DNA from: Selenomonas bovis DSM 23594 | GTDB taxonomy: Bacteria > Bacillota > Negativicutes > Selenomonadales > Selenomonadaceae | Assembly (NCBI RefSeq): GCF_000381005.1 | Contig: NZ_KB908400.1 | Span: forward strand, 1 to 35,671 | DNA: 35,671 bases | Direction of reading: 5' to 3' | Shown here: positions 7,653 through 35,671 of the stretch, piece after piece | How positions within the stretch are numbered: the stretch's first letter is position 1 | How the letters are laid out: the number at the start of each line of letters is the position of its first letter | Translations under genes and position numbers: made by a program | The notes under the pieces: generated by a model | Seen by the model: only the letters and a program-made list of their open reading frames with translations | Told to the model about the DNA's origin: nothing | The model's database searches: none

Positions 7653-7663
7653 GGAGGACCGTC

Positions 7664-8488: not shown

Positions 8489-8517
8489 TTCTTCCTATCA
8501 CCATCGCCCTTCCTTGA

Positions 8518-8597
8518 GGCAGCGCCGATCCATGCGGCGATGCCTTGAAATAAGATAAATCCCTTCGCGGCGCCCCGGAGCACAGCTCCAGGGCGCC
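8518..8597 (+). other. Two hairpins between the PTS and sensory genes
   Basis: The first stem pairs GGCAGCGCCG with CGGCGATGCC (8518-8544, one mismatch). The second pairs GGCGCC..GGAGC with GCTCC..GGCGCC (8569-8597). Neither is followed by a T run, so they may slow or partially end transcription, or protect the PTS mRNA. Their position between two functional blocks is the main evidence. Confidence 0.45.
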
Positions 8598-8711
8598 GTG
8601 CCGTATGATGCAGTTGACAAGCCCGCAGGCAATTTATAAGATGGAGGCAGCACCTGCGCCCGCCGCCCGCAGTCCGCAGACCGACGCTATGATCACGAAG
8701 AGGAGGCCATC

Positions 8712-9674: not shown

Positions 9675-9675
9675 T

Positions 9676-11013: not shown

Positions 11014-11693
11014 CACAGCAGAAACTACGCATCATGATCGCCGACGACCAGGAGCTCATCCGCGAGAGCCTCAGCATCATCCTCAGCCAGAACGCCGATA
11101 TGGAGGTCACGGGCCTCGCGGAGAACGGCGCCGAGCTCCTCTCCCTCATCAAGAAGGCGCCGCCTGACATCGTGCTCATGGACATCCGCATGCCGGAGCT
11201 CGACGGCGTGGCGGCAACACACGCCATAAAGGAGCAGTGGCCGCAGGTCCGCATCATCATCCTCACGACGTTCGACGATGACGAGTACGTGTTCAACGCG
11301 CTGAAATACGGCGCCTCCGGCTACCTGCTCAAGGGCGTCTCCGTCGCGGAGCTCAGCAACGCCATCCGCACCGTCGCGCACGGCGGCGCCATGATCAACC
11401 CGGGCATCGTCACGAAGGTCGTCCATTTCTTCAACCAGATGGCGCAGTCGAGTGTCCAGCAGGACGACGCCGCCATCGATGCCGGCAGCCTCAGCCGCAC
11501 GGAACGCAACATCGCGCTGCTCGTAGGTCACGGCCTCTCCAACAAGGAGATTGCCGCCCGCCTCTCCCTCTCGGAAGTTACCGTGCGCAACGGCCTCTCC
11601 TCCGCGCTCTCCAAGCTGGGCCTGCGCGACCGCACGCAGCTCGCCATCTGGGCGGTGCAGACAGGCCTCGCAAACGCCGAGGTCCTGCCATGA
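11010..11693 (+). CDS. NarL/FixJ-family response regulator
   Basis: The 227 residues contain a receiver domain (1-125) with the acidic pair D12/D13, phospho-acceptor D58 in VLMDIRMPELDG, the switch Thr in IIILTTFDDDE and a Lys in GYLLKG. A LuxR-type helix-turn-helix follows (LSRTERNIALLVGHGLSNKEIAARLSLSEVTVRNGLSSALSKLGLRDRTQLAIWAVQ, about 160-217). It overlaps the kinase by ATGA and the next binding protein by ATGA, so all are translationally coupled. Likely targets are the PTS genes and this operon, but no recognition site could be identified. Confidence 0.94.
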   Translation: MTQQKLRIMIADDQELIRESLSIILSQNADMEVTGLAENGAELLSLIKKAPPDIVLMDIRMPELDGVAATHAIKEQWPQVRIIILTTFDDDEYVFNALKYGASGYLLKGVSVAELSNAIRTVAHGGAMINPGIVTKVVHFFNQMAQSSVQQDDAAIDAGSLSRTERNIALLVGHGLSNKEIAARLSLSEVTVRNGLSSALSKLGLRDRTQLAIWAVQTGLANAEVLP

Positions 11694-13000
11694 AGCGAAA
11701 AACCGCCCTGCTCTGCGCGTTCCTCGCCTGCGCCTATCTCTGGGTGTTCCTCGTGCTCCAGTACGCCCAGCCGCGCACCATCACCCTGCGCATCGGGCTT
11801 TTCGCCGGCAGCAACTGGAACGTCCCGCAGGGCGACAGCTACGCCTTCCTCGATACCGTCGCCGCCCGCTTCGAGGCGACGCATCCGGGCGTGAAGATCC
11901 GCTACGTCAGCGGCATCCTGCAGGAAGACTACAGCGAGTGGCTGGCCGAGCAGGAACTCTCCGGCACGATGCCCGACCTCTTTTTCCTCCCGTCGGAGGA
12001 CTTCGCGCTCTACGCGGGCCTCGACGCGCTCAGAGATCTCACGCCCTTCATCGAGGCAGATCCCGCGTGCGACCTCGCGGGCTTCTACCCCGCGCCGCTC
12101 GCCGACGGCATCGAGGATGGCAAATACTACGCGCTCCCCGTCGAGTGCGTGCCGCGCCTCATGTTCGTCAACAAGACGCTCCTCTCGCGGGAGGGCATCC
12201 CCCTCCCGCACGACGGCTGGACCTGGGAGGATTTCCTCGCCATCTGCCGCCGCGTCACGCGCGATACCGACGGCGACGGCCGCGTCGACCAGTTCGGCGT
12301 CTACGGCTACACCTGGGAGGATGCCGTCGTGACGAGCGGCGCGACGCTCTTCTGGGATCAGGGGCGCACCTCCCGCTTCGCCGACGCGCGCGTCGAGGAC
12401 GCGCTCCGTTTCCTCATCGATCTGCATCAGCTCCCTGAGATCCGGGAAGCCAGGGAACGCGATTTCGACCTGGGGCGCGTCGCCTTCCGTCCGTTCAATT
12501 TCGCCGCCTACCGGGCCTATCGCCCCTATCCGTGGCGCATCAAGAAAGCCACCGACTTCGAATGGGAATGCGTGCGCCTGCCCAAGGGCCCGGCGGGCGC
12601 GAACACCTCCCCCATCCAGACGCTCCTCATGGCGATGAGCGCCCAGACCTCCCACGAGGATCTCGCCTGGGAATTCCTGAAAGCCATCTCGATGGAAAAG
12701 GAGAACCAGCACCTCGTACTCGAAAAGACCGCCGCGCTCCCCGTCCGGCGCGACGTGCTCGAGGCGGCAACGCCCGAGGAGATCTTCGGCGCGGGCACCG
12801 GGGAGAGCGACCGCAGCCCGCACGCCATCAGCGCCGTCCTCGACGACGGCAAATCCCCGGACCGCTTCCAGGGCTACGCGGCCGTCATGCGGCTGGCCGA
12901 CCAGAGAATCCAGGAAATCGTCGACGGCGTCCGCCCCTTCGACAACGCGCTCAACCAGCTGCAGAAGGAAGTCAACGCCCTCCTCCAGGAAACGCCGTAA
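11690..13000 (+). CDS. Extracellular solute-binding protein, family 1 (sugar type)
   Basis: A 436-residue protein with an N-terminal hydrophobic segment (about 5-25). It contains the family 1 binding-protein pattern FAGSNWNVPQGDSYAFLDTVAARFEATHPGVKIRYVSG, LFFLPSEDFALYA, YALPVECVPRLMFVNKTLLSREGIPLPHDGWTWEDFLAICRRVT, and a DTDGDGRVDQFG loop that looks calcium-binding. A Cys at position 14 gives a poor lipobox (FLAC), so an uncleaved anchor is as likely as a lipoprotein. It is translationally coupled to the response regulator. With no ABC permease in the cluster, a sensory role is likelier than uptake. A strong terminator follows. Confidence 0.88.
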   Translation: MKRKTALLCAFLACAYLWVFLVLQYAQPRTITLRIGLFAGSNWNVPQGDSYAFLDTVAARFEATHPGVKIRYVSGILQEDYSEWLAEQELSGTMPDLFFLPSEDFALYAGLDALRDLTPFIEADPACDLAGFYPAPLADGIEDGKYYALPVECVPRLMFVNKTLLSREGIPLPHDGWTWEDFLAICRRVTRDTDGDGRVDQFGVYGYTWEDAVVTSGATLFWDQGRTSRFADARVEDALRFLIDLHQLPEIREARERDFDLGRVAFRPFNFAAYRAYRPYPWRIKKATDFEWECVRLPKGPAGANTSPIQTLLMAMSAQTSHEDLAWEFLKAISMEKENQHLVLEKTAALPVRRDVLEAATPEEIFGAGTGESDRSPHAISAVLDDGKSPDRFQGYAAVMRLADQRIQEIVDGVRPFDNALNQLQKEVNALLQETP

Positions 13001-13036
13001 ACCGCTTCCAGGCGTCCTCGTAAACACGCGATGCAC

Positions 13037-13088
13037 AAACGTCCGCTGCCCTATGCCATCTCCGGCCATAGAGCAGCGGACGTTTTTT
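13037..13088 (+). terminator. Rho-independent terminator after the sensory operon
   Basis: The stem AAACGTCCGCTG pairs with CAGCGGACGTTT, with a further CTATG/CATAG pairing inside, and a run of T follows. The left arm begins within ATGCACAAACGTCC, also found at the start of the dispersed repeat copy B (near 19034), so the terminator may derive from that repeat. Confidence 0.88.
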
Positions 13089-13187
13089 ATCTGCGCCCCA
13101 GCGCACCTGTCCCTGATACATCGCACCATCGGCGCATACAAGGCGCGGAGGGCTCTCTGCCAAAGGATGCCTCTGCCTCGCCCGTTC

Positions 13188-13994
13188 CTAGCGGATGAGC
13201 CCCTGCCGCTTCAGATACGCCGCGATGCCGTCCTCCGTATTGGCGAGCGTCACAGCGCTCGCGGCCTGCCGGACCGCCTCCGGCGCGTTCCCCATCGCGA
13301 CGCCCTCGCCCGTGTAGGAGAGCATCGGGATATCGTTGTAATTATCGCCGAAGGAGATCGCCTGCGCCGGCGTGAGCGAGAAGGCGCGGAGCATCGCCTC
13401 GATGCCGGCGGCCTTCGTGACCTCGCGGCTCATGATCTCGAGCAGGATCGGCGACGAGCGCACGACATTGCACGCGGGCAGCCGCGCGGCAAGCGCCTGC
13501 TCCGCCGCCGCGATCTCCGCCTCCTCGCCCATGAGCAAGAGCTTGTGCGGCTGCTCCGCGCGGCCGAGGACGCGCGCGAAGGGAACGACCTCCGCCGCAG
13601 CGCTCGTGATCTCCTCCTCATGCTGGACGCGCGCGTCCCTTGCCTCGACGTACCAATGATGCCCCGCGTAATAATTCACCGTCAGCGCCGGGAACGCCTC
13701 GGCGATGATGCCGAGCGCCTCCCGGACGGCGGGAAGCGGCATGCGGCGGCTCAAGAGCTCCTCCCCCGCCGCCGTGAGCGCGAGCGCGCCGCTGTAGCAC
13801 ACCAGCGGGATATCGATGCCGAGCGCCCGCGTGATCGGCAGGATGGCCTCCGGCATGCGGGCCGAGACCAGCACGAACGGGATGCCGCGCGCGAGCAGCT
13901 GGCGCACCGCGTCCGCCGTCGCCGCCGTCACCTGATGCTCCGGCGTGAGAAATGTTCCATCGATGTCTGAAAAAACGATCCGATCTGCCCCCAT
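13188..13994 (-). CDS. Cof-type HAD-superfamily phosphatase
   Basis: Predicted cytoplasmic sugar-phosphate or nucleotide phosphatase of the Cof/YidA class. The 268-residue protein starts MGADRIVFSDIDGTFLTPEH, with the catalytic Asp pair in DIDGT. It has the motif II segment FVLVSARMPEA, a C2-type cap, the motif III Lys region (SREVTKAAGIEAML) and motif IV GDNYNDIPML. I moved the start to the ATG at 13994 because AAGGAGG lies directly upstream and the 25 extra upstream codons do not resemble the family. It is monocistronic; the substrate is not readable. Confidence 0.9.
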   Translation of the reverse strand: MGADRIVFSDIDGTFLTPEHQVTAATADAVRQLLARGIPFVLVSARMPEAILPITRALGIDIPLVCYSGALALTAAGEELLSRRMPLPAVREALGIIAEAFPALTVNYYAGHHWYVEARDARVQHEEEITSAAAEVVPFARVLGRAEQPHKLLLMGEEAEIAAAEQALAARLPACNVVRSSPILLEIMSREVTKAAGIEAMLRAFSLTPAQAISFGDNYNDIPMLSYTGEGVAMGNAPEAVRQAASAVTLANTEDGIAAYLKRQGLIR

Positions 13995-14156
13995 ATTTTT
14001 TCCTCCTTCAAGACCACATGAAAGCGCCAAGACGCGCGGCGCAAACGCCGCAGCAGAGCGCTCGTCCACGCACAGGCGTCACGCAGCCTGCGGCCGATCC
14101 GCCTGGACAGCATGCTTTTCCTCGGCAAACGGTCTGCCTGACGCTTTCCCTCTCCA

Positions 14157-15026
14157 TTATACCCCAGCCGTCCCCTCCGGCAAAGCCGCCACAACGGGCA
14201 CGAGGATGCGCGTGAGGTAGTCGCGCACGTCGCGCGAGCTCATCTCCTCGAGGATGCTCTCCTCATAGGAATAGCCCGCGGCGCGCAGGTGATGCGCGCG
14301 CAGGTAGTCGCGCAGGAGCGCGTAGGGGCGCGCGGTGTCCTCATAGTCGCCGGCGAAATAGGTGACGAGGTAGCGTCCCGCGGGGCGCTCGTAGCGGTAG
14401 GGACGCTCGATGGCGCGCAGCGGCCGCTCGGTGACGGTGAAGTAGTAGCTCTCGAAGTTCTCCCGGCCAGGCGTCAGATACTCCTCCGGCGAGAGCATGA
14501 AGCCCATGCCGTAGCCCGCGTCCGCCTTGTGCTCGAAGACGTAGCGCAGGTGCTCGGTCATCGCGCGCTCGAGCGTCGGGCTGTCGCCCTGCAGCGCAAG
14601 CTTACGGACGTTGCGCGAGATGACGAGATGCGCCGCGGGGAGCACGACCTCCTCGACGCGGCCGCAGGTGACGTGCGCGGCCTGCGCGAGCAGCGCGCGC
14701 TGGTTGCGCACGATGCGCATCTGGTGCTGGAGGCGCGCGAGCTCGCCCGTGAGCCATGCCTGCTGCTCCGTGAGCAGCGCGTCGAGGCGCGCGGGGCTGC
14801 GATGTTCCATGTACTCCTTGATCTCCGCGAGGTCGAGCCCCATCGCGCGGAAATGGCGCAGCATGTAGAAGGGATAGAACTGCTGGAAGCTGTAGCTCCG
14901 GTAGCCGTTCGGCTCGACGCGCGCGGGGCGGAAGATGCCCTGCGCGTCATAGTAGTGCAGCGTGCGCTTGTTCACGCCGACGATGCGCGCGAACTCGCCC
15001 GTGTGGAAGGATCGCTTGCGTGCCAT
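14157..15026 (-). CDS. MerR-family transcription regulator with a GyrI-like effector domain
   Basis: The 289 residues have the MerR winged helix at the N-terminus (FHTGEFARIVGVNKRTLHYYDAQGIFRPARVEPNGYRSYSFQQF, about 7-52), a dimerisation coiled coil (about 75-115), and a C-terminal region like the GyrI/BmrR drug-binding fold (RPYRYERPAGRYLVTYFAGDYEDTARPYALLRDYLRAH). Regulators of this build sense hydrophobic or cationic compounds and switch on exporters. It is divergent from the MATE gene. The intervening promoter has the 19-base spacer typical of MerR targets, which strongly suggests that it controls the exporter and perhaps itself. Confidence 0.9.
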   Translation of the reverse strand: MARKRSFHTGEFARIVGVNKRTLHYYDAQGIFRPARVEPNGYRSYSFQQFYPFYMLRHFRAMGLDLAEIKEYMEHRSPARLDALLTEQQAWLTGELARLQHQMRIVRNQRALLAQAAHVTCGRVEEVVLPAAHLVISRNVRKLALQGDSPTLERAMTEHLRYVFEHKADAGYGMGFMLSPEEYLTPGRENFESYYFTVTERPLRAIERPYRYERPAGRYLVTYFAGDYEDTARPYALLRDYLRAHHLRAAGYSYEESILEEMSSRDVRDYLTRILVPVVAALPEGTAGV

Positions 15027-23767: not shown

Positions 23768-25024
23768 ATGCAAGCAAGCAAATTCCTCACGGCGAACTTC
23801 GGCCGCTACGACACCTCCTCCATCGGCTCCTACATGAACATCGGCGGCTTCACGGCGCTCCGCAAGGCCGTCACGATGGACGGCGAGGACATCGCCGCCC
23901 TCATCGCCGCGAACAAGGTCAAGGGCCGCGGCGGCGCCGCCTACGACATGGGGCGCAAGTGGTCGCAGGCCCGCGCCGTCAAGGGCGAGAACAAGGTCAT
24001 CATCTGCAACGCCGACGAGGGCGAGACGACGACGTTCAAGGACCGCGAGCTCATCCGCCAGGATCCCTTCAACCTCATCGAGGCGATGATCATCGCGGGC
24101 TACGTCATGGGCGCGACGGACGGCTACATCTACATGCGCGCCGAGTACGCCTGCTTCCGCCCGCTGCTCCAAAACGCCATCCGCCAGGCGAAAAGCTACG
24201 GCTTCCTCGGCACGAACATCCTCGGCCGCGGCTTCGACTTCCGCCTGCATCTCTACTCCGGCGCGGGCGCCTACGTCTGCGGCGAAGGCACGGCGCTCAT
24301 CCGCTCCATCGAGGGCAAGGCGGGCCGCCCGCGCATGAAACCGCCGTTCATCAAGGTCAGCGGCCTTTTCGCGCGCCCGACCTGCCTCAACAACGTCGAG
24401 AGCCTCTCGCTCGTGCCGCATCTCCTGCTCGACGCGGAGAAGCGCTACGCCTCGCTCGGCACCGAGGAGTCGCGCGGCACGAAGATGGTGAGCGTCGCGG
24501 GCAACGTCAATCACCCGGGCGCTTTTGAAATCCCCTTCGGCACGAAGCTCCGCGACATCATCGCGCTCGCGGGCGGCGTGCAAGGCGGCCGCCGCATCTC
24601 CCTCTTGCAGCTCGGCGGCGCCTCCGGCAAGGTACAGGCGGGCACGGACGAAGTGCTCGATACGCCCTACACCTACGAGGATCTCGCCGCCATCGGCCTC
24701 ACGGTCGGCTCCGGCGGCATCCTCGTCATCGACGAGCGCACGAGCGTCATCGACTTTTTGCGCATGAACCAGGAATTCTTCTCCGAGGAATGCTGCGGCC
24801 AGTGTACGCCCTGCCGCGAGGGCAACGTGCACATCGCGCTCTTCCTCGAAAAGCTCAAGGCGGGCACCATCACGGCGGAGGAGATCGGCCTCATGGGCGG
24901 CATCGCCGAGGTCATGAGCCGCTCGTCGCTCTGCGGACTCGGCGAGACCGCGCAGAACAGTCTGCTCTCCGCCATGCACGTTTTCCCAGAAGTCTTCACC
25001 GCAGGAGGTGCGCATCATGAGTGA
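23768..25024 (+). CDS. hydB: NAD-linked [FeFe] hydrogenase diaphorase subunit, NuoF-like
   Basis: Binds FMN and NAD(H) and one [4Fe-4S] cluster. The 418 residues carry the NuoF core: GRGGAAYDMGRKW (about 56-68), NADEGETTTFKDRELI, YVCGEGTALIRSIEGKAGRPRMKPPF, the SLBB-like segment AGNVNHPGAFEIPFGTKLRDII, and the cluster ligands ECCGQCTPC with a distal Cys in SLCGLG. It lacks the thioredoxin-like N-terminus and ferredoxin C-terminus of large HydB proteins. Several glycine-loop residues differ from canonical NuoF (see findings). Its last eight bases overlap hydA. Confidence 0.92.
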   Translation: MQASKFLTANFGRYDTSSIGSYMNIGGFTALRKAVTMDGEDIAALIAANKVKGRGGAAYDMGRKWSQARAVKGENKVIICNADEGETTTFKDRELIRQDPFNLIEAMIIAGYVMGATDGYIYMRAEYACFRPLLQNAIRQAKSYGFLGTNILGRGFDFRLHLYSGAGAYVCGEGTALIRSIEGKAGRPRMKPPFIKVSGLFARPTCLNNVESLSLVPHLLLDAEKRYASLGTEESRGTKMVSVAGNVNHPGAFEIPFGTKLRDIIALAGGVQGGRRISLLQLGGASGKVQAGTDEVLDTPYTYEDLAAIGLTVGSGGILVIDERTSVIDFLRMNQEFFSEECCGQCTPCREGNVHIALFLEKLKAGTITAEEIGLMGGIAEVMSRSSLCGLGETAQNSLLSAMHVFPEVFTAGGAHHE

Positions 25025-26765
25025 ACCATCGACCGAGCTCGTCCATCTGACCATCAACCACATCCCCGTCGCCGTGCCGAAGGGCACGAAGATCATGCAG
25101 GCGGCGGCGAAAATCCACATCGACATCCCGCACCTCTGCTACCATGAGGATCAGCGCATCAAGGCGCACTGCCGCCTCTGCTCCGTCGAAGTCACGGGGC
25201 GCCGCCGCCTCTACGCGGCCTGCTCGACCGAGTGCTGGGAGGGCATGGAGGTGCACACGGACACGCCGATCGTGCGCAATACCCAGATTGCCATCCTCCA
25301 GCTCATGCTCGCGAACCACAACCGCGACTGCCTGAGCTGCCCGCGCAACCAGAACTGCGACCTCCAGCACCTCGTGAGCCGGTTCAACATCCTGCGCTCC
25401 CCGCTGCCCTCCGTCGTCCGCGACACGCAGCGCATCGTCACGAACCCCTCCATCGTGCGCGACCCGAGCAAGTGCATCCGCTGTGGCCGCTGCATCCGCG
25501 CCTGCAAGGACGTGCAGGGCATCGCGGCGCTGACCTACGCGCACAGGAGCAGCGACATCGTCGTCACGACGGCCTACGACAAACCCATGGAGGCGACGGA
25601 CTGCGTGCTCTGCGGCCAGTGCACCCTCGTCTGCCCGACGGGCGCCATCGTCGAGCGCGACGCGACGCAGCGCGTGCTGCGCGCGCTCCAGGATAAATCG
25701 AAGCACGTCATCGTCCAGGTCGCGCCCGCCGTGCGCGTCGCGCTCGGCGACGCCTTCGGCCTCGGCGCGGGCGCGATCGCGACGGGCCAGATGGTCACGG
25801 CGCTCAAGCTCCTCGGCTTCGACAAGGTCTTCGACACGAACTTCGGCGCCGACCTCACGATCATGGAGGAGGGCTACGAGTTCCTCGACCGCCTGCAGCA
25901 CGGCGGCGTCCTGCCGATGCTCACCTCCTGCTGCCCGGCCTGGGTGACCTACATGGAAAAGGAGTACGGCAGCTCCCTCGCCCACCTCTCGAGCGCGAAA
26001 TCCCCGATGGGCATGTTCGGCGCCGTCGCCAAGACCTACTACGCAGAAAAGGCGGACATCCCCGCCAAGGACATCGTGACCGTCGCCATCATGCCCTGCA
26101 CGGCGAAAAAGGCCGAGGCCCAGCGCCCCGGCCTCGGCCGCGGCGGCCAGCCAGACATCGACTACGTCCTCACGACGCGCGAGCTCATCAAGCTCATCAA
26201 ATACGTCGGCCTCACCTTCCGCGACCTGCCGGAGAGCCCGTTCGACAGCCCGCTCGGCGAGGCGACGGGCGCGGGCGCCATCTTCGGCGCGACGGGCGGC
26301 GTCATGGAGGCCGCGCTGCGCACCGTCGTCGAGAAGGCCACGGGGAAACCGCTCGACACCATCGAGTTCACCGCCGTGCGCGGCATGGAAGGCATCCGCG
26401 AGGCGAGCCTCGACATCGCGGGCCGCACCGTCCGCGTCGCCGTCTGCCATACGCTGAAGAATGCCGCGAAGCTCATGGCCGCCGTCAGGAGCGGCACGAG
26501 CCCCTACGACTTCATCGAAGTCATGGCCTGCCCCGGCGGCTGCGCGGGCGGCGGCGGCCAGCCCATCGGCACGCGGCGCGCCGTCACCGCGCAGCGCATC
26601 GCCTCCCTCTACGAGATCGACCGCAGCCTGCCCCGCAGGAAGTCGCACGAGAACCCCGAGATCCAGAAGCTCTACGCGGACGCCCTCGACGCCCCGCTGA
26701 GCTCCAAGGCGCACAACCTCCTGCACACGACCTACCAGGCCGTCCCACCCGCCTATACGTTCTAA
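25017..26765 (+). CDS. hydA: [FeFe] hydrogenase catalytic subunit
   Basis: Reversible H2 formation, here probably driven by NADH through HydB/HydC. The 582 residues contain, in order, a [2Fe-2S] domain (HLCYHEDQRIKAHCRLC), the His-ligated cluster HNRDCLSCPRNQNC, two [4Fe-4S] motifs (CIRCGRCIRACK, CVLCGQCTLVCPTG) and the H-cluster domain. L1 is TSCCPAW (Cys305/306), L2 is MPCTAKKAE (Cys361), and L3 is EVMACPGGCAGGGGQP (Cys505 and Cys509). All H-cluster ligands are present. The ATG at 25017 has AGGAGG upstream. The maturases HydE, HydF and HydG are not in the window. A MITE abuts the stop codon. Confidence 0.96.
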   Translation: MSEPSTELVHLTINHIPVAVPKGTKIMQAAAKIHIDIPHLCYHEDQRIKAHCRLCSVEVTGRRRLYAACSTECWEGMEVHTDTPIVRNTQIAILQLMLANHNRDCLSCPRNQNCDLQHLVSRFNILRSPLPSVVRDTQRIVTNPSIVRDPSKCIRCGRCIRACKDVQGIAALTYAHRSSDIVVTTAYDKPMEATDCVLCGQCTLVCPTGAIVERDATQRVLRALQDKSKHVIVQVAPAVRVALGDAFGLGAGAIATGQMVTALKLLGFDKVFDTNFGADLTIMEEGYEFLDRLQHGGVLPMLTSCCPAWVTYMEKEYGSSLAHLSSAKSPMGMFGAVAKTYYAEKADIPAKDIVTVAIMPCTAKKAEAQRPGLGRGGQPDIDYVLTTRELIKLIKYVGLTFRDLPESPFDSPLGEATGAGAIFGATGGVMEAALRTVVEKATGKPLDTIEFTAVRGMEGIREASLDIAGRTVRVAVCHTLKNAAKLMAAVRSGTSPYDFIEVMACPGGCAGGGGQPIGTRRAVTAQRIASLYEIDRSLPRRKSHENPEIQKLYADALDAPLSSKAHNLLHTTYQAVPPAYTF

Positions 26766-26923
26766 GGAACCGCTGATTAAATGAGGTGCTCCGGATTTAC
26801 GTGGATGCGCTGTACTCTTCGGAGACGAACCGCAGGCGTAGCCGAAGCTACGCTGAGGATGGTCGACGACGAGAGGACAGTGCAGACGCGTGAAGACGGA
26901 GTGCCGAATTCATCAGTGGTTCC
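26766..26923 (+). mobile_element. 158-bp MITE, copy B
   Basis: Same ends (GGAACCGCTGATT ... ATCAGTGGTTCC), length and orientation as copy A, with 11 substitutions and no gaps. It is flanked by CTAA on both sides (26762-26765 and 26924-26927), a 4-bp target duplication that includes the hydA stop codon. It has no coding capacity of its own. Confidence 0.87.
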
Positions 26924-27041
26924 CTAAGCCACAGCGGGCGCCTGCCATCCGCCGTCTGGTATGCCGCCCGCGCGCACCAGCCGCGCAGAAAGCGACAGCG
27001 CGCAAGGAAACGCGGCACCCTGCATCCATACATCAGCACAC

Positions 27042-27147: not shown

Positions 27148-29271
27148 TCACCGCTTCTTGAGCGTCTCCTTCTCGAGGCAGTAGCTGTTGTGCTGCGTGA
27201 CCTTCGCGCAGTAGCCCGGCAGCACGACGATGGTCGTCGTCGGCTCCTCGATGATGGCGGGGCCGTGGACGATATCACCGTAGACGAGGCGGTCGCCTGG
27301 GAAGACCGGCGTCATCTTGAGGTCGTCGAATTCCTTGAAGTAGATCTTGCGGAACGAGGAGCTCTTACCCTCCTCGTAGGCGAGGTCGCGGTTCGTCGGC
27401 AGTTTCGCCTCGGGGAGCTTCGCCTCGCGCTCATGCTTGCCGATGGCCTTGACGCGCCACGAGACGCACTCGATGTACGTATCGTCCTTGATGGAGAACG
27501 TACGCTCGTGTTCCTTGTGGAACGCCTGCTCCATCGCCTTGACGCCCGCCGGCGTGATCTCGAAGTCCTCGTTGAGATCCGCCGTGATGTTGACGGGCAG
27601 CTCGTAGACCTGGAACGGATAGTGCGCCTCCATGTAGAGCTCGATGCGCTGGTATTCCTTCTCGATGTGGTTGCGCGCGAAGAACTGCATCGCCTCGTCG
27701 CGCAGCGCCTTGAGGAGCGTGTTGACGCCCTTGTAGTCGAAATCCGCCGTCGTCGTGTAGTGGCTGCCGCTATACTCCGAGACGATATCGGAGAAGAGAC
27801 CGCCTGCCGCCGACAGGCCGCCCGCCGTGCGGGGGATCAGCAGGCGCTGCATCTCGAGGCCCTCGGCGAGCGCGATGGCGTGCAGGCCGCAGGCGCCGCC
27901 GCCCGCGACCATCGCATAGGCGCGCGGGTCGATGCCCTGCCAGATCGTGATGTCCTTGATCGCCGCGATCATGTTGACATTGACCGTCGCCCAGATGGAA
28001 TACGCCGCCTCCATGACCGTGATGCCGAGCGGCTCCGCGACGTGCTTCTTGATGGCTTCGCGCGCGAGTTCCGGGTAGAGCTTCATGCGACCGTCGTTGA
28101 AGAAGTCCGGGTTGAGGTAGCCGAGCACGCAGTTCGCGTCGGTGACCGTCGGCAGCGTGCCGCCGCGGTTGTAGCAGGCAGGCCCCGGCACCGAGCCGGC
28201 GCTCCTGGGACCGACGCGGATCATGCCGCCGTTGTCGACCCAGGCGATGGAGCCGCCGCCCGCACCGATGCTGTGGACGTTGACGCGCGAGATGCCCGGG
28301 ATCTCATCGCCGATGATGGCTTCTTTCGATACGGAGATTTCGCCGTCGATGACGCAGCTCACGTCGAACGTCGTGCCGCCCATGTCGAGCACGACGGCAT
28401 TCTTCTCATCGAGGTCGTCCATCGCGTACTTGCGCCCCGCGATTGGCGCCATCGACGGGCCGGAGTCGACGGAGTAGAGCGGCCGGTTCACGATCTCGTT
28501 CGTGCTCATGACGCCGCCCGCCGCGTTGAGCATGCCGACCTTGCCGATGAAGCCCGCGTCGTTGAGGCGGCTGTTGAGGTCGTTCGCGTAGCTCGAGATG
28601 AGCTTCCGCAGCGACGCGTCCATCGCCGCCGACACCCAGCGGCGGTACTCGCGGTTGCTCGGATTGACCTCCGAGCTCAGTACGACCGTGACCTCCGGCC
28701 AGACCTCGTGGATGATCTCGCGCGCCCGCCGCTCATGCGCGGGATTCACCGTAGACCAGAGGAAGCAGACCGCGATGGCCTCGACATTGTACCCTTTGAG
28801 CACGCGCGTCTGCTCGCGCACCGCCTCCTCGTCGAGCGGCGTATCAACGCCGCCCTCGGAGTTGATGCGCTCCTTGACCGGCAGCGTCAGATAGCGCGGC
28901 ACGAACGGCTCCGGATAGTCGAGGAACATATCGAACGGATTCTTGTTCGGCCCCTCGCGGAACAGGAACACATCGCGGAAGCCCTCCGTGCAGAGGATGC
29001 CGACCTTCCCGCACTTCTTCTCGACGACGGCGTTCGTCGCGATCGTCGAACCGTGCGTGAAGATGCCCGCGTTCACGACGCTGATGTCCTTGAGGAAATC
29101 GTCGAACGGCTCCTCATAGTGCTCGGCCGCGACCTTGAGCGCGCCGAGGATGCCCTCCGTCCAGTCATGCGGCGTCGTCGGAGACTTGAACACATTGACG
29201 CTGCCATTTTCATCTACCACAGCGGCATCCGTGAACGTGCCGCCGACATCAACACATGCATATTTCGACAT
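27148..29271 (-). CDS. Hydantoinase/oxoprolinase subunit A (ATP-dependent, HyuA type)
   Basis: ATP-binding subunit of the hydantoinase A/oxoprolinase/acetone-carboxylase-like superfamily; partners cleave or carboxylate cyclic amides or ketones using ATP. The 707 residues show the actin-like phosphate motifs VDVGGTFTDAAVVD (about 7-20) and VVLDMGGTTFDVS, then the conserved GAGGGSIAWVDNGGMIRVGPRSAGSVPGPACYNRGG and MVAGGGACGLHAIALAEGL. I use the second ATG (29271), because GGGAGG is eight bases before it and only two before the first. It follows hyuB by 15 bases. The exact substrate (5-oxoproline, N-methylhydantoin or other) cannot be decided. Confidence 0.9.
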   Translation of the reverse strand: MSKYACVDVGGTFTDAAVVDENGSVNVFKSPTTPHDWTEGILGALKVAAEHYEEPFDDFLKDISVVNAGIFTHGSTIATNAVVEKKCGKVGILCTEGFRDVFLFREGPNKNPFDMFLDYPEPFVPRYLTLPVKERINSEGGVDTPLDEEAVREQTRVLKGYNVEAIAVCFLWSTVNPAHERRAREIIHEVWPEVTVVLSSEVNPSNREYRRWVSAAMDASLRKLISSYANDLNSRLNDAGFIGKVGMLNAAGGVMSTNEIVNRPLYSVDSGPSMAPIAGRKYAMDDLDEKNAVVLDMGGTTFDVSCVIDGEISVSKEAIIGDEIPGISRVNVHSIGAGGGSIAWVDNGGMIRVGPRSAGSVPGPACYNRGGTLPTVTDANCVLGYLNPDFFNDGRMKLYPELAREAIKKHVAEPLGITVMEAAYSIWATVNVNMIAAIKDITIWQGIDPRAYAMVAGGGACGLHAIALAEGLEMQRLLIPRTAGGLSAAGGLFSDIVSEYSGSHYTTTADFDYKGVNTLLKALRDEAMQFFARNHIEKEYQRIELYMEAHYPFQVYELPVNITADLNEDFEITPAGVKAMEQAFHKEHERTFSIKDDTYIECVSWRVKAIGKHEREAKLPEAKLPTNRDLAYEEGKSSSFRKIYFKEFDDLKMTPVFPGDRLVYGDIVHGPAIIEEPTTTIVVLPGYCAKVTQHNSYCLEKETLKKR

Positions 29272-29286
29272 GGTCATACCCTCCCA

Positions 29287-31068
29287 TCAACGCGCAGCCT
29301 TCATCGAGGCGCGCAGCTTCTCGCTCGCCTCGACATCCGGCACGAACTTCTCCTTGGAATCATCGACGATGACGCCGTAGACCTCCTTCGCGAATTCCTT
29401 CGTGATCCAGCCCTCGCGCACGCGGTGGCACACGAGCTCCATATCGCGCTCGAGCGGATCGCCGTAGCCGCCGCCCGACGAGCTCTCCGAGACGATGGCC
29501 TCATCCTTCGAGATGGCCGGCTCCGCAAAGGGCGGCAGCTCCTCACGCGAGCCCTCGCCCTCGGCGAGCTTGTACTTCCAGGCCGCGGACTTGTGGCCGT
29601 CGCGGCCGCCCGCCGCGCCTTTCGGCGGATTGTCGATGCCGTCACAGCTGTACGCGCAGGTCACAGGGTCCTTGCGCGCCGTCATCACGAACTTGCACGA
29701 GGGCGCCGAATCGTATTTGCCCGCGCCGACGGAGTCCGGCAGCACCTCCTCCGAGATCACCTTGAACGGATACTGCTGCTCGAGCACCTCCGTCGAGTTC
29801 CAGTTCATCGCGCCGCCCGTCACGGGATACTGGTACGTCACCCAGCCGTCGTAGCCGTTGACCGCCGGGCCGCCCGTCATGCCGCAGAAGATCTGGTTGA
29901 CATACGGCGCGTTCCCCTTGCGCCAATCCTTGCCGGAGACGACCGCGACCGCCGGACACTGCGTCGCGCCGCCCTCCGCCATGCCTTTCTTGTCCGTGAT
30001 CTCGTTCATGAGCGCCTGCACGCCGGAGATCACGCGGTCCGCGAGGTTCGTTGTCGCCATCGAGGACGAGTACGGCGCCTTCGCCTTGCCGATGACGCAG
30101 CCCTCGCGCATCTTCACCTTGATCTGGCTCATCGCCCCGTCGTTGCAGGGGATGTCGCAGGGCATGCGGTTCAGCACGCCCGTCACGGCGCTCGCGAGCG
30201 TCGTCGCCTCGCACATATTAAGACCGCACGGCAGCGAGTCCGCGTTTTTCGTGAAATCAAACGCGATCGTCCCATCCTCAGGATGCGTATCGCACTCAAT
30301 GTGGATCGTGATCTCCGGTACGACGCCCTCGATGGCATCCGCTTTGATGTCGTACTCGTAATGGCCCTTCGGCAGCTGCTTGAGCTCCTCGCGCATGCGC
30401 TTCGCGCCGTACGCCTGATACGCCTCGCAGAAGTCCTTGATCTTCTCGTTGCCGTACTCCGCGCAGAGCGCCGCGAGCCGCTTCTCGCCGACGCGCGACG
30501 AGCCAACGCAGGCGAGATAGTCGCCGTACCACATCTCCGGCACGCGGTTGTGCATCTGCGCGATCTTGATGATGTCCGCGACATCCTTGTAATCGCGCTG
30601 GATCTTGATGCACGGCCAGTCGATCGCACCCTCCTCGAACATGTCGCGCGCCGTCGGCGCGTACGTGCTCGGAATGGCGTTGCCGATATCCGCCTGATGC
30701 CCCTTCGTGACTGCGAAGAACATCAGCTCCCCCTCGTTGAACACCGGCGCGATGTACGTGTAGTCCGCATGGTGCGTATTGCCATGATATGGCGAATTGT
30801 TGAGGAAGAGATCGCCCTGCTGGATGCCGTCCGGATGCGAAAAGCACGGGCTCACCGTGAGGCCCATATTCGCGCAGTGCACGGGGATGCTCTCCGCGAG
30901 CGCGATGACCTTGCCGTTGCGGTCGCAGATGGCGGTCGAGAGGTCGTGGCAGACGCTCATCAACTGTGAACGCGCCGTGCGCATCAGCGTGTTCGTCATC
31001 TCGAGCCCGATGCTGTAAAGCCGGCTCGAGAGCACCGACATCAGATACGGTTCCATTGTCTTGCTCAT
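29287..31068 (-). CDS. Hydantoinase/oxoprolinase subunit B (HyuB type)
   Basis: Catalytic partner of the A subunit. The 593-residue protein begins MSKTMEPYLMSVLSSRLYSIGLEMTNTLMRTARSQLMSVCHDLSTAICDRNGKVIAL. It carries the family patterns QQGDLFLNNSPYHGNTHHADYTYIAPVF, CGLNMCEATTLASAVTGVLN, and GGRDGHKSAAWKYKLAEGEGSREE followed by SSSGGGYGDPLERD. The ATG at 31068 has AAGGAGG upstream; the frame stays open back to 31230 through a leader hairpin, but that part is not homologous. It is first in the hyuB-hyuA operon, with a promoter at 31244-31272. Confidence 0.9.
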   Translation of the reverse strand: MSKTMEPYLMSVLSSRLYSIGLEMTNTLMRTARSQLMSVCHDLSTAICDRNGKVIALAESIPVHCANMGLTVSPCFSHPDGIQQGDLFLNNSPYHGNTHHADYTYIAPVFNEGELMFFAVTKGHQADIGNAIPSTYAPTARDMFEEGAIDWPCIKIQRDYKDVADIIKIAQMHNRVPEMWYGDYLACVGSSRVGEKRLAALCAEYGNEKIKDFCEAYQAYGAKRMREELKQLPKGHYEYDIKADAIEGVVPEITIHIECDTHPEDGTIAFDFTKNADSLPCGLNMCEATTLASAVTGVLNRMPCDIPCNDGAMSQIKVKMREGCVIGKAKAPYSSSMATTNLADRVISGVQALMNEITDKKGMAEGGATQCPAVAVVSGKDWRKGNAPYVNQIFCGMTGGPAVNGYDGWVTYQYPVTGGAMNWNSTEVLEQQYPFKVISEEVLPDSVGAGKYDSAPSCKFVMTARKDPVTCAYSCDGIDNPPKGAAGGRDGHKSAAWKYKLAEGEGSREELPPFAEPAISKDEAIVSESSSGGGYGDPLERDMELVCHRVREGWITKEFAKEVYGVIVDDSKEKFVPDVEASEKLRASMKAAR

Positions 31069-31171
31069 AGCAGATACCTCCTTGCTGAACGAGGCGCCAA
31101 AGCCCGCTGCCCGGCGCGAATCTACAAGACTTCGTAATCTTGATTCATCCACAGAAAAACATCCTGGTAAC

Positions 31172-31217
31172 ACAAAAGGACAACGATATCTTTCGTCAGA
31201 CATCGTTGTCCTTTTGT
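31172..31217 (-). other. Leader hairpin of the hyuBA operon (possible attenuator)
   Basis: A perfect 16-bp stem (ACAAAAGGACAACGAT with its complement) and a 14-base loop in the transcribed leader, about 20 bases after the predicted start. On the minus strand the stem ends CCTTTTGTGTT, a U-rich but broken tract. It may be a conditional terminator or a stabiliser. Confidence 0.55.
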
Positions 31218-31223
31218 TCCGTT

Positions 31224-31306
31224 TGTTCATCTATGTTGAACATAATATAACATAGATTCTCGCCCCTGTCAATCCGTTTTTAAAAATTGTTCATTTATAA
31301 TGAACC
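31224..31306 (-). promoter_or_regulatory. hyuBA promoter flanked by two identical-type operators
   Basis: The promoter TTGACA (31272-31267), 17 bases, TATATT (31249-31244) on the minus strand is near consensus. Operator 1 (31224-31242) is TGTTCA-N7-TGAACA just after the -10 box. Operator 2 (31288-31306) is TGTTCA-N7-TGAACC upstream of the -35 box. Their centres are 64 bp apart, about six helical turns. This suits repression by looping, or one protein acting at both places. No regulator gene is adjacent. Confidence 0.82.
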
Positions 31307-31323
31307 AGAGAGGCAGGCGCCTT

Positions 31324-31464
31324 TCATTTCTGCGCGATCGTCTGCGTCAGCACCTGGATGCTGTCGTTGAGCGCTCCAAGCCGTGCCTCGATGCGCACGA
31401 GCAGGAACGCCGTCACCGCCATCGGGAACCCGAGATTTCCGATCAACGTAAAAAAGTCCTGCAT
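31324..31464 (-). CDS. YvrJ-like small membrane protein
   Basis: The 46-residue peptide, MQDFFTLIGNLGFPMAVTAFLLVRIEARLGALNDSIQVLTQTIA, has one hydrophobic helix (about 5-22) and an amphipathic tail, the pattern of the YvrJ family of Firmicute small proteins with no established function. The ATG has a strong AAGGAGGTG site, which rules out the upstream in-frame start. It lies 92 bases after the chemoreceptor gene on the same strand. Confidence 0.8.
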   Translation of the reverse strand: MQDFFTLIGNLGFPMAVTAFLLVRIEARLGALNDSIQVLTQTIAQK

Positions 31465-31556
31465 GCTCTCACCTCCTTCTGAGATGATACATGCAGGAAC
31501 CTTTGCTTTTGACAACGATGTGACGGGCGCGCAGATGGACGCCCCCTAGGCGGGCT

Positions 31557-32375
31557 TTAGACCTCGCCCGCCATCTTCTCGATGCGCGCGGACGTCTGGT
31601 GCAGGGTGTTGCTCTCGTTAGAGATCTGGCGGATGAGCTCCGCCTGCGCGACGTTGACCTCCGTGAGCTGGGCGATTTCCCTGTTCAGCGCGTGAATGGA
31701 GTTGCGAATCTTCATGAGGATGTCCGTGATCTGCTGCGCGGAGTCCGAGCTGTTCTCCGCCAGCTTCCGAACCTCGTCGGCGACGACGGCGAAGCCGCGC
31801 CCCTGCTCGCCCGCGCGCGCCGCCTCGATGGCGGCGTTGAGCCCGAGCATGTTCGTCTGCGTCGCGACGGTCTTGATGAAGTCGATGACTTTGTCCGTCT
31901 CGACGACCTGCGCCGCCGCCTCACTCGTGAGCTTCTTGAGGCTCTTGCCGCTGTCAGCGAGCGTCTCCGCCTTCTCCGAGATCATGGCGAGCGCCTTCGC
32001 GAGCGCTTCCGTCGCCTGGCGCAGCTCCTCCGCCGTCTCGTGCATGGCGCGCTGATGCTCGAGCGACTGGTGCACGGCGACGGCGCCGACGACCTCGCCG
32101 CCCTCCTCGAGCGGGATGCTGACCGCCACGTAAGGCACGCCGTAGATTTCTTTCTTCACCTGCACGACGACGCGGCGACGCTCCCGCATCGCCACGGCGA
32201 CCGCCGCCTCCGGCTTCACCGCCTTACCGACGACGACCGTCGCGGCGAGCTCCTCGATGGAGTTCGCTGCGACCCATTTCTCGCGGTCGGCGACCACCAT
32301 GCCGACGCGCTGCGTCATGAGCTGCGGCAGCAGCGGCGTCACCGCACAGAATGCCTCCAGGATCGTACTTGCCAT
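31557..32375 (-). CDS. Soluble methyl-accepting chemotaxis-type receptor
   Basis: A 272-residue cytoplasmic signal transducer without transmembrane segments. Residues about 1-115 form a sensor region of unassigned fold ([34 protein letters not shown] resembles a PAS/Cache-like strand set). Residues about 120-272 are a short coiled coil with the receptor signalling tip: [51 protein letters not shown]. The ATG follows GAGGGGGAG. Such short receptors are common in clostridia and Negativicutes and are expected to contact CheA/CheW. The ligand is unknown. A terminator separates it from the recD2 remnant upstream. Confidence 0.88.
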
Positions 32376-32448
32376 TTCGACTCCCCCTCATCCAGTCTCC
32401 GCGCCTTCGCGCGTACTGATTTCTCTTGCTATATCTTTCGCCAGAAAA

Positions 32449-32493
32449 AGCGGATTCCCTGCCGGAACATCTTTTTCCCGCGGGAAATCCGCT
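32449..32493 (-). terminator. Terminator after the recD2 remnant
   Basis: On the minus strand AGCGGATTTCCC pairs with GGGAATCCGCT (one bulge), followed by TTTTTC. The original 3' end of the helicase gene is therefore intact. Confidence 0.8.
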
Positions 32494-32527
32494 GTCTTTT
32501 TGCAAAAAGGAAGTGCGCCGCGCGCCC

Positions 32528-33425
32528 CTACAGCGCCTGTGCGAGCCGCTCGGCGAGCAGCGTGTAGCGGCGCTTCGTGCGGTCATTCTCGACGGCGGTC
32601 TGGAGGGCGGCTTTGGAGCCGAGGAGGATGACGAGGGTTTTCGCGCGGGTGACGGCGGTGTAGAGGAGATTCCTTTGGAGCATGACGTGATGGCCGGGCA
32701 CGAGGGGCAGGAGGATGACGGGGTATTCGCTGCCCTGGCTCTTGTGGACGCTCATGGCGTAGGCGAGCGTGAGCTCGCCGATCTCGACGCGCTCGTAGTC
32801 GACGGTCGTCTCGGCGAAGCGGACGGTGAGGTGGTCGGACTCGAGCTCGCGGATGTAGCCGATGTCACCGTTGAAAACATGCTTTTGGTAGTTGTTCTTC
32901 GTCTGCATGACTTTGTCGCCGAGACGGAAGGTCACGACGCTGTTCGTGTACTCGGACTTCGCGGGGCTCGGCGGGTTGAGGGCGGCCTGGAGGCGGCGGT
33001 TGAGGCTGTCGACGCCGCAGTCCTGGCGGTGCATGGGCGAGAGCACCTGGATATCGCTGAGCGGCGAGTAGCCCTCGGCGGGGAGCTCACGCGCGCAGAG
33101 GTCGACGATGCGATTGGCTGTCGCCGCGGCGTCAGGCAGCTCGTAGAACCGGAAATCGCCGGCAGCGGAGCACTCCGGCAGCCGTCCCTGGTTGATGGCG
33201 TGTGCGTTGAGGACGATGCGGCTCGCCTCATCCTGGCGGAATACCTCGGTGAGACAGACGCTCGGGATGACGCCTGAGCGCAGGATGTCCTTGAGCACAG
33301 CCCCCGGGCCGACGGCGGGGAGCTGGTCGACGTCGCCGACGAGGATGAGGTGGCAGCCCGCAGGCACCGCCTCGAGGAAATGGCGCATGAGCACGATGTC
33401 CATCATCGAGACTTCATCGAGGATG
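32528..33425 (-). pseudogene. recD2: RecD2-type helicase, 3' part only
   Basis: About 300 residues remain, starting exactly at the Walker B motif (IILDEVSMMD) and running through GDVDQLPAVGPGAVLKDIL, VFRQDEASRIVLNAHAIN, a UvrD-like segment with AYAMSVHKSQGSEYPVILLPL, and LLYTAVTRAKTLVILLGS at the C-terminus. RecD2 proteins are usually over 700 residues. The N-terminal half, including Walker A, is absent. At about 33425 the sequence changes into the 3' end of a hydrogenase gene on the other strand. The frame continues 23 bases into that DNA to an ATG without a ribosome site. Not functional as a helicase. Confidence 0.85.
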
Positions 33426-33716
33426 ATGGCGGCCGTCAGGAGCGGCACGAGCCCCTACGACTTCATCGAGGTCATGGCGTGCCCCGGCGGCTGCGCGGGC
33501 GGCGGCGGCCAGCCGCTCGGCACGACGCGCGCCATCACGAAAGAACGCATCGCCTCCCTCTACGCGATCGACCGCAGTCTGCCGCACAGGAAGTCGCACG
33601 AGAACCCCGTGATCCAGAAGCTCTACGAGCGCGACCTCGGCGCCCCGCTGAGCCCGAAAGCGCACGACCTCCTGCACACGACCTACCACGAGATCCCGCC
33701 GGCGTGCACGTTCTGA
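33426..33716 (+). pseudogene. Second [FeFe] hydrogenase gene, last 96 codons only
   Basis: From the ATG at 33426 to the stop, the translation MAAVRSGTSPYDFIEVMACPGGCAGGGGQPLGTTRAITKERIASLY... matches HydA residues 487-582 without gaps, at about 81% identity. It keeps the L3 H-cluster motif but lacks L1, L2 and all accessory cluster domains. It has no ribosome site or promoter. The first 80 or so bases are nearly identical to hydA, including a shared AGG arginine codon; the remainder is more diverged. It is a remnant of a paralogue, and a terminator still follows it. Confidence 0.88.
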
Positions 33717-33743
33717 AGCCGCCGGTATCTACAAGCATAGAGA

Positions 33744-33776
33744 AGCCCCGGACACCTTCTATAGATGTCCGGGCTT
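33744..33776 (+). terminator. Terminator after the hydrogenase remnant
   Basis: AGCCCCGGACA pairs with TGTCCGGGCT (one bulged C), followed by TTTT. It is probably the native terminator of the lost second hydrogenase operon. Confidence 0.75.
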
Positions 33777-34034
33777 TTCCGCGCGGCGCGGCTTCCCCAG
33801 CGCGCCTTTCTCATCTCTCCCCTGTGCCCTGCTTGCGGAGCTTCGCCGCGAGTTTCGGCAGCGCCTTCTGTCGAAAGCAGGCGTAATAGCGGATGTTCGC
33901 CGCCGCATCCTCATCGGCAGGGACTGCTGCCGCCAGGTCAAAGACGACCTCAAGGCGCAGATCGCCGCCATCGAACGCTACGAAGCCGCCTCGGACACCG
34001 ATTTCACGGAATGAACGGATGTGAACAAGAGCTG
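33777..34034. other. Stretch without a convincing gene
   Basis: Between the hydA2 terminator and the AAA ATPase I see no start with a ribosome site. One plus-strand frame is open to a TGA at about 34013. Its last part reads LRREFRQRLLSKAGVIADVRRRILIGRDCCRQVKDDLKAQIAAIERYEAASDTDFTE, which has protein-like composition and could be the tail of a lost gene. I do not recognise it. A minus-strand frame (33811-34056, TTG start) looks less likely. Confidence 0.3.
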
Positions 34035-35462
34035 TTATTTTTCGTCGTTTCGCCAAGCGGCACTATCTAACGAATAAAGATCTGGTATCTGAAGCAGGAC
34101 TGCCCCTTCCCTCTGCGCGCGCTCCCTGACCGGCTGCGTATAACCACTCCTGCTGAAGAAGACATACCACCTCTTCTTCACCTGCGGAAATGCCATCGCC
34201 GCCGTGAGAAGGTCCTCATACTCTTCCATCGGCATGGGGCGGCTCTGGTATTTGCATTCGCAGAAAAGCCCCTGGGTCCCGCTTTCATCGAGCGCGAGCA
34301 CATCCACATCGTCCTGCTGCCGCAGCACCGGATTCGTCCCCCACCATTTGCCGATGTGCGCGGGAAGGAACGGCAGCGCGCTCAACTTTGCCATGCGCAG
34401 CAGATAGGAACAGCAGACCTGCTCGAAGACTGGCCCCATGTAATCGGCGATGCCCGCCATGATCCGCTTCGCCGTCTCCTCTTCCCCGAGCAGCGCATAG
34501 AAACTCCGCTTGGAGAAGACGTACCGATACCAGAATGTGTAATAGAAATCTGTCAGGATATAGATGCCCTTCTTGCTCGTCCGCGCCTCTCCGCAGGGAA
34601 CGATTTTCCTGACGAGACGGATATTCTGCAAGACCGAGAGATACTTGCTGCACTTGCCGGCGGGCTCGTGAATCCGGTCCGCAATCATTTGCACCTTATT
34701 GGCACCGGTAGCGATCGCCTCCAAGATGCTGTTGTATACCACCGGTTCGCGCAATTCCATCCGCAAGAGCATCTGCGGCTCATCGTTCAGGAACGTGCTC
34801 TCCGGCAAGACCTGATGCGCGAGGTTCTGCTCGATGCTTTCCTGCTCATCAAAGGCATTGAGATAGCGAGGAATCCCGCCGAGGATCCCGTATGCCAACA
34901 GCCGCTCCTCCTCGCTGTAATGTGGAAAAAAGGACGCGCTATCGAAGTAATCGAAAGGCAGGACTTCCATCTGCCCCGTGATCCTGCCGTAAAGCGGGCT
35001 CTTGTACCCCATGACATCATTGACCATGAAACTGACGCTGGAGCCACAGAGCACCAACATGATGTTCTGCTGCTGCCATGCGTGATCGATCGCGTGCTGC
35101 AAGATGCTCTTGATTGACGCGTTCTGAGCTGCCAGGAAGGGAAACTCATCGATGATCAGGATGGTCTTCTCCGGGCGCGGTGCCGCCTGCTTGCCAAAAT
35201 AGGCAAACGCCCGCTCCCAATCGGGAAACGGCGCTAAGAACGCATCGGCGAAATACTCCTGGAGCGACTGGGAAAAGTCCTGCAGGTTCAGAGCATCGTT
35301 CTTCTCCTGCGCCGGGAAGAAGATGACCGGCTGCCCCTTGGCAAATTCCTGCAAGATCGTCGTCTTGCCCACGCGTCTCCGCCCATACATGACGAGGAAC
35401 TCGAATCGCCGGGACCCCGCCATACGCTGCAAGACCGCGAGTTCTTTTTTCCGCCCAATCAT
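34035..35462 (-). CDS. AAA ATPase with C-terminal DUF234 nuclease-like domain
   Basis: The 475 residues belong to the archaeal-type ATPase_2/DUF234 group. The P-loop is GRRRVGKTT (27-35, Lys33) and Walker B is ILIIDEFPF (Asp105, Glu106), followed by a sensor-like VLCGSSVSFM. A winged-helix segment lies near 265-320, and a C-terminal domain has a PD-(D/E)XK-like pattern (DDVDVLALDESGTQGLFCECKYQSRP, about 395-420). The role is unknown; such genes are often accessory and sporadically distributed. The ATG has GGAGGAGGAG upstream. Base composition is visibly less GC-rich than in neighbouring genes, suggesting acquisition. It lies just behind a promoter embedded in 15-bp repeats. Confidence 0.88.
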   Translation of the reverse strand: MIGRKKELAVLQRMAGSRRFEFLVMYGRRRVGKTTILQEFAKGQPVIFFPAQEKNDALNLQDFSQSLQEYFADAFLAPFPDWERAFAYFGKQAAPRPEKTILIIDEFPFLAAQNASIKSILQHAIDHAWQQQNIMLVLCGSSVSFMVNDVMGYKSPLYGRITGQMEVLPFDYFDSASFFPHYSEEERLLAYGILGGIPRYLNAFDEQESIEQNLAHQVLPESTFLNDEPQMLLRMELREPVVYNSILEAIATGANKVQMIADRIHEPAGKCSKYLSVLQNIRLVRKIVPCGEARTSKKGIYILTDFYYTFWYRYVFSKRSFYALLGEEETAKRIMAGIADYMGPVFEQVCCSYLLRMAKLSALPFLPAHIGKWWGTNPVLRQQDDVDVLALDESGTQGLFCECKYQSRPMPMEEYEDLLTAAMAFPQVKKRWYVFFSRSGYTQPVRERAQREGAVLLQIPDLYSLDSAAWRNDEK

Positions 35463-35482
35463 GTCTTCTCCTCCTCCGGTAA

Positions 35483-35541
35483 AGTAATATACTCTAAAGT
35501 ATCATACTCTAGAGTATATTACTTTGGAGTATATTCTGCAA
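35483..35541 (-). promoter_or_regulatory. Promoter within tandem 15-bp palindromic iterons
   Basis: Three complete 15-bp units start at 35483, 35498 and 35513, each AGTA-N3-TACT followed by TYT and two purines; a partial fourth starts at 35528. Each unit is itself a palindrome. Together, the arms at 35481-35495 and 35511-35525 form a perfect 15-bp inverted repeat. On the minus strand TTGCAG (35541-35536), 17 bases, TATACT (35518-35513) makes a promoter whose -10 box lies inside the third unit. The layout predicts a repressor that binds cooperatively and controls the ATPase gene. Confidence 0.8.
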
Positions 35542-35563
35542 TCTCTGAAAAAGCCATTCTTCG

Positions 35564-35671
35564 GTTCATTGTAAAATGAACTTGAACAGTTAATCAAAAA
35601 CAAAAATCCATAGCGACTTCCTATGTTAAAATGGTTTTGAAAACAATCATCAACAAAGGAGCATCGCTATG
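35564..35671 (+). other. Leader and start codon of a gene running off the window
   Basis: AAAGGAG lies eight bases before an ATG at 35669, the last three bases, so a plus-strand gene probably begins here. Its leader is AT-rich and holds a palindrome GTTCATT-N4-AATGAAC (35564-35581) and an inverted pair CATAGCGA/TCGCTATG. An insertion-sequence transposase is one possibility, but no coding sequence is visible. Confidence 0.4.

Follow-up and report, generated by a model that had tools for sequence, protein, structure and literature searches.

Introduction

Homology-facilitated illegitimate recombination (HFIR), which has been documented in Streptococcus pneumoniae, Acinetobacter baylyi and Pseudomonas stutzeri, involves foreign DNA that is joined, in most cases, through 3–10 bp of microhomology at one end and through homology at the other. 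It generally leaves an insertion together with a deletion of similar size, about 1 kb each (PMC3240628). For spontaneous bacterial duplications, the confirmed junctions carry more than 10 bp of microhomology and lie within one Salmonella genome (PMC3411829). In B. subtilis, natural transformation between divergent genomes places several discontinuous donor segments close together (PMC13344027).

Here we describe a junction in a stretch of 35,671 bases (the window), which is the whole of contig C22 of G000, a genome of 2.69 Mb in 75 contigs that very likely belongs to a Selenomonas-type bacterium. At this junction the 3′ part of a RecD2 helicase gene (recD2′) meets the 3′ part of an [FeFe]-hydrogenase large subunit gene (hydA′), the latter of the allele carried by the sister species G001. 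HFIR is the closest described process. Like the cited examples of HFIR, the locus has presumably foreign DNA on one side, as judged from identity alone, and a 3-bp microhomology at the join; a homologous far end is proposed only, and the G001-like stretch ends at an IS30-type element beginning at 35563, at the contig end. Unlike those examples, duplicated gene parts remain here and the far end is hidden at the IS element. The locus also resembles the spontaneous duplications (PMC3411829) in that the end of one unit abuts the start of the following one at a new junction, but differs from those Salmonella cases in having 3 bp of microhomology and two haplotypes. G001-like stretches on both sides of recD2′ recall the transformation mosaics (PMC13344027), although one border here is non-homologous and transformation itself is only a possible route.

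Structure of the junction

The fragment recD2′ occupies 32528..33428 on the minus strand and hydA′ occupies 33426..33716 on the plus strand. When each was aligned to its intact relatives, recD2 could be followed through 33428 and hydA from 33426, and the bases shared by both parent genes are ATG only (33426..33428, assigned to neither strand). A 24-base overlap given by the first BLAST boundaries (33426-33449) was reduced to these 3 bp by base-by-base alignment. An earlier sequence-only reading, which had placed a broken minus-strand recD2 against a broken plus-strand hydA near 33425, is thereby confirmed; the microhomology that it suspected is also present, but as ATG rather than "ATGGC". On base composition alone, about 6% of random joins would show at least 3 bp of microhomology, and the 3 bp taken alone are therefore unremarkable.

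A 13-bp perfect direct repeat, GACTTCATCGAGG, is found on the plus strand at 33410-33422 and 33459-33471, with one copy on each side of the join. Among 20,000 random 60-bp pairs drawn from the intact recD2 on contig C50 of G000 and from G001 hydA, none reached 13 bp and 7 reached 12, a statistic chosen post hoc. Both copies of the repeat are kept, so the crossover did not fall inside it. The 32-mer spanning the junction was found in 5 of 170 loci, all five from the window itself, and in none of the viral contigs.

Of the 727 codons of recD2, the fragment has lost those up to about codon 428; as the earlier reading had described, it runs from what we take to be the Walker B motif onwards. It has no Walker A. 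Its AAA_30 match (Pfam) covers profile positions 92-174, compared with 2-173 in the intact protein, and the encoded fragment is 96% identical in amino acids to residues 426-726 of the 727 of the intact C50 RecD2. Beyond the shared ATG, 95 codons of a 585-codon gene remain in hydA′; these take in the last part of Fe_hyd_lg_C (profile positions 201-245 of 245) and almost all of Fe_hyd_SSU (3-55 of 56). With recD2′ lacking Walker A and hydA′ lacking most of its catalytic domain, both fragments are probably inert.

Intact counterparts of both genes are present in the assembly. The native hydA lies on the plus strand of the window at 25008..26765 (Pfam and whole-genome protein search), and a search with the full HydA protein matched five places: this gene, hydA′ and three more distant homologues at 53, 28 and 36% identity. 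The full-length RecD2 query (727 residues) matched two places, the intact C50 gene and recD2′; a query with the 3′ part alone, which cannot reveal an orphan 5′ half, gave the same two. No orphan 5′ half of either gene was found by the full-length protein searches across the whole assembly of 75 contigs, nor was the reciprocal junction that had been predicted, a recD2 5′ half joined to a hydA 5′ part. Intact recD2 and hydA genes elsewhere on the same chromosome had been named as evidence against the earlier proposal; both are in the assembly, and would presumably share a chromosome.

A terminator scan gave 3 sites against 1.2 expected. On the minus strand it scored a terminator-like hairpin across the recD2′ end (32536-32515) and another at 33747-33773, some 30 bases beyond the hydA′ stop and likewise scored on that strand only; no plus-strand terminator was scored after hydA′. 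The view that both native terminators remain is thus only weakly supported.

The surrounding gene layout was assigned largely from Pfam matches, and the names hydB, hydC, ABC-F, ogt, apbE and dnaB were read off translations. Directly 3′ of the native hydA stop is a MITE-like repeat of about 165 bp (26762..26926, no strand), 88% identical to C50:344-510, with further copies in G000 and G001. Its ends, GGAACC and GGTTCC, are inverted only imperfectly, and the repeat search reported no inverted pair at 26740-26950. A second copy in the window lies at 5914-6075. Between native hydA and recD2′ are the minus-strand hydantoinase/oxoprolinase genes hyuA/hyuB (27148..31230), and a minus-strand chemoreceptor gene with an MCP-signal domain (31557..32375) adjoins recD2′. 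On the other side of the join, a minus-strand DUF234-type AAA ATPase gene (34035-35462; ATPase_2 and DUF234) follows hydA′. Just upstream of it is a near-perfect palindrome (35481-35525; 22-nt arms, 95% complementary), possibly a candidate operator; a stretch matching it is present in G001.

Ancestry along the contig

Judged by nucleotide identity, the two halves of the join differ in ancestry: hydA′ and the ATPase gene are G001-like and most of recD2′ is of the genome's own type. The hydA fragment is 99.3% identical in nucleotides and 100% in amino acids to the G001 gene, with 2 differences in 96 codons (stop included), both silent, whereas its identity to native hydA is 86.8% in nucleotides. 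It had been read as the remnant of a second hydA, but is instead near-identical to the end of the sister-species gene. The similarity continues through the minus-strand ATPase gene and its flanks (33717..35562), and the whole of 33426-35562 is 97.9% identical to G001:C20, the ATPase gene alone reaching 99.2% in nucleotides. These values suggest a foreign origin for 33426-35562.

Comparison with G001 in 150-bp bins gave 96.7-100% across 33426-35562, except for one gapped bin at 82%, and 83-94% in the bins of 32606-33449. To the left of recD2′, the bins of 30956-32305 reach 96.7-99.3%; a 33-base gap lowers the bin at 32306-32455 to 78%, after which the following bin is back at 96.7%. This left-hand stretch includes the MCP-signal-domain gene, which is 98.5% identical in nucleotides to its G001 counterpart, and G001 recD2 has the same neighbour. 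Elsewhere in the window, gene-length matches are 70-95% identical (hydABC about 90% overall, hyuAB 93-95%, others 70-93%), and repeats of about 120 bases or less alone reach 96-98%.

Within recD2′ itself the ancestry also changes. Over 32612-33424 the fragment is 96.4% identical in nucleotides to the C50 gene and 90.0% to G001. The 26 codons at 32534-32611 are 94.9% identical to G001 and 84.6% to C50, and informative sites mark the extreme 3′ end of this minus-strand fragment (32528..32608) as mostly G001-like, with the switch falling between 32591 and 32624. The three recD2 alleles compared have only 17 bp in common at this switch (32592-32608). Nine sites between 32609 and 32669 are unlike both the C50 and the G001 alleles, so a third allele may be involved. 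The fragment differs from C50 recD2 at 29 positions, 23 of which are third codon positions (20 synonymous and 7 nonsynonymous codons). From this predominance of third-position changes, recD2′ was probably still a functional allele while it diverged, and was truncated later.

Gene order and contig connections

In two of six genus relatives (G002 and G006), hydA and recD2 lie next to each other in convergent orientation, with 1.1-1.2 kb between them. In three others (G001, G004 and G005) no recD2 was found in the examined stretch past hydA, and the contig of G003 ends too soon. Of 80 named recD2 loci, one (L062, the same contig as that of G006 judging by length and gene positions) has hydA at 50% identity or more in the examined flank, and the convergent order is therefore not general. 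A flagellin gene separates the two genes in G002 and G006 (open reading frames; Pfam on the G002 copy). Matches of G000 to this stretch are weak, at 68-90% over about 30-150 bases, which indicates that the flagellin spacer is not kept there; it may correspond to the deletion that HFIR generally leaves, depending on an ancestral order that is uncertain. In G001 (locus L117, G001:C20, 6937-18400), hydA and the ATPase gene adjoin a stretch (6937-14190) with a counterpart on contig C6 of G000, and gene order at the hydA end thus differs between the two genomes.

The right end of C22 consists of 109 bp of an element that we take to be of IS30 type (35563..35671, plus strand), starting where the G001 match stops (35562/35563). 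The same 109 bases recur, without a mismatch, at one end of C50. Contig C54 ends with bases 1-95 of the 109 and begins with bases 15-109, giving exact overlaps of 95 bp, and C22 breaks off at the very base from which the element sequences on C50 and C54 diverge. The element was matched in 19 places in the genome; in an exact-word comparison of loci L125-L173, which include all 19, the longest exact word shared with any copy outside C22, C50 and C54 was 32 bases. A single repeat node (two-in, two-out; word of about 95) would produce this pattern, and C22 would then continue to C50, either directly or via C54, although unbinned contigs could add partners.

The copy on C50 encodes a helix-turn-helix (HTH_38) protein; its transposase-like frame (L012 7093-7470) is open for 126 codons only, and the copy looks decayed. 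C54 (L149, 6658 bases) carries C5-cytosine methylase and DUF6339 genes and has both ends in the same IS30-type element; it could be circular, or else form an island lying between C22 and C50.

Given this link, the order would be hydABC, the MITE-like repeat, hyuAB, the MCP-signal-domain gene, recD2′, the join, hydA′, the ATPase gene, the IS30-type element, possibly C54, recD2 and ABC-F. Written with X1 for the sequence between hydA and recD2′ and X2 for that between hydA′ and recD2, this would read hydA - X1 - recD2′ | hydA′ - X2 - recD2, a layout of the tandem-duplication type. The downstream end of one unit is joined to the upstream start of the other, and hydA′ is oriented like hydA. Intact copies would flank the join, hydA to the left on the same contig and recD2 to the right on C50, the latter linked by the exact IS overlap only.

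Discussion

We put at about even the chance that the junction is a real illegitimate join of the duplication type involving sister-species DNA. In this scenario, DNA from a G001-like cell, carrying the hydA end and the adjoining ATPase gene, would have entered a cell of the species represented by G000. One of its ends would have been joined inside a copy of recD2 at the 3-bp microhomology, with the 13-bp direct repeat nearby, and the far end would have been tied in next to the intact recD2, either by homologous recombination or by later IS30 activity. The product would be a partial tandem-type duplication of mixed ancestry containing two dead gene fragments. We infer the transfer, its direction and its mechanism from the ancestry and layout described above.

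The most serious competitor, to which we assign around a third of our belief, is an assembly chimera, in which the assembler joined the recD2 of one strain to the hydA end of another within a multi-strain metagenome. A search that was positive in 9 of 14 control genomes detected no 16S rRNA gene in G000, a hint only that the genome may be a metagenome bin. Furthermore, G001-like and own-type stretches alternate along the contig, much as a strain chimera would mix ancestries, and 2.2 kb separate the join from a contig end lying within a repeat; the caution about chimeric assembly in the sequence-only reading was therefore justified. However, the parents have just 3 bp in common at the join itself and 13 bp close by, much less than the 95-109-bp overlaps at the contig ends. 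This overlap is too short for the assembler to have made the join unless real chimeric reads existed, and a k-mer assembler would be expected to break at the branch if both parent sequences were in the sample. The 17 bp common to the alleles at the recD2′ switch point the same way, although an unseen third strain could share more.

An ordinary tandem duplication within the genome, with endpoints in hydA and recD2 followed by deletions and gene conversion from other strains, is improbable. The proposed order, with recD2′ and hydA′ meeting between intact hydA and recD2, is that of such a join, but the near-identical unit copies that it should leave are not seen. The fragment of hydA is 87% identical to native hydA against 99.3% to G001, and that of recD2 is 96% identical to the C50 gene. 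These unequal identities contradict a simple within-genome duplication and require either a foreign donor or two or more events. Nor do the segments of X1 and X2 present on C22 match each other.

The meeting of two 5′-truncated genes at their broken ends had suggested an inversion or an ectopic joining. Of these, ectopic joining fits; one side of an inversion is very unlikely, given that both genes are intact elsewhere (unless the intact copies come from another strain in the bin) and that no reciprocal join was found. Insertion of the hydA′-ATPase stretch into recD2 by a transposon or phage is more improbable still, despite the IS30-type element that borders the G001-like stretch on its right (35562/35563), since no element end was noticed on the left of that stretch and a search of the plasmid collection with 32500-35671, at megablast sensitivity, gave no match.

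A narrower form of the preferred reading, an illegitimate join involving sister-species DNA, holds that one uptake of that DNA gave rise to a heterozygous tandem duplication in a single step, through an illegitimate join beside the 13-bp repeat. We consider this unlikely, at about one-fifth of our belief; if true, it would represent natural HFIR between species that yielded a duplication instead of an insertion with a deletion.

The locus looks like a leftover rearrangement scar, well resolved but ordinary, and not a new genetic system. If real, it would be a fresh scar of the capture of sister-species DNA with almost no homology, and would account for the two puzzling pseudogene fragments with no need of an inversion. 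It also cautions that, where truncated genes occur in pairs in a draft genome, their ancestry should be checked allele by allele before a rearrangement is inferred.
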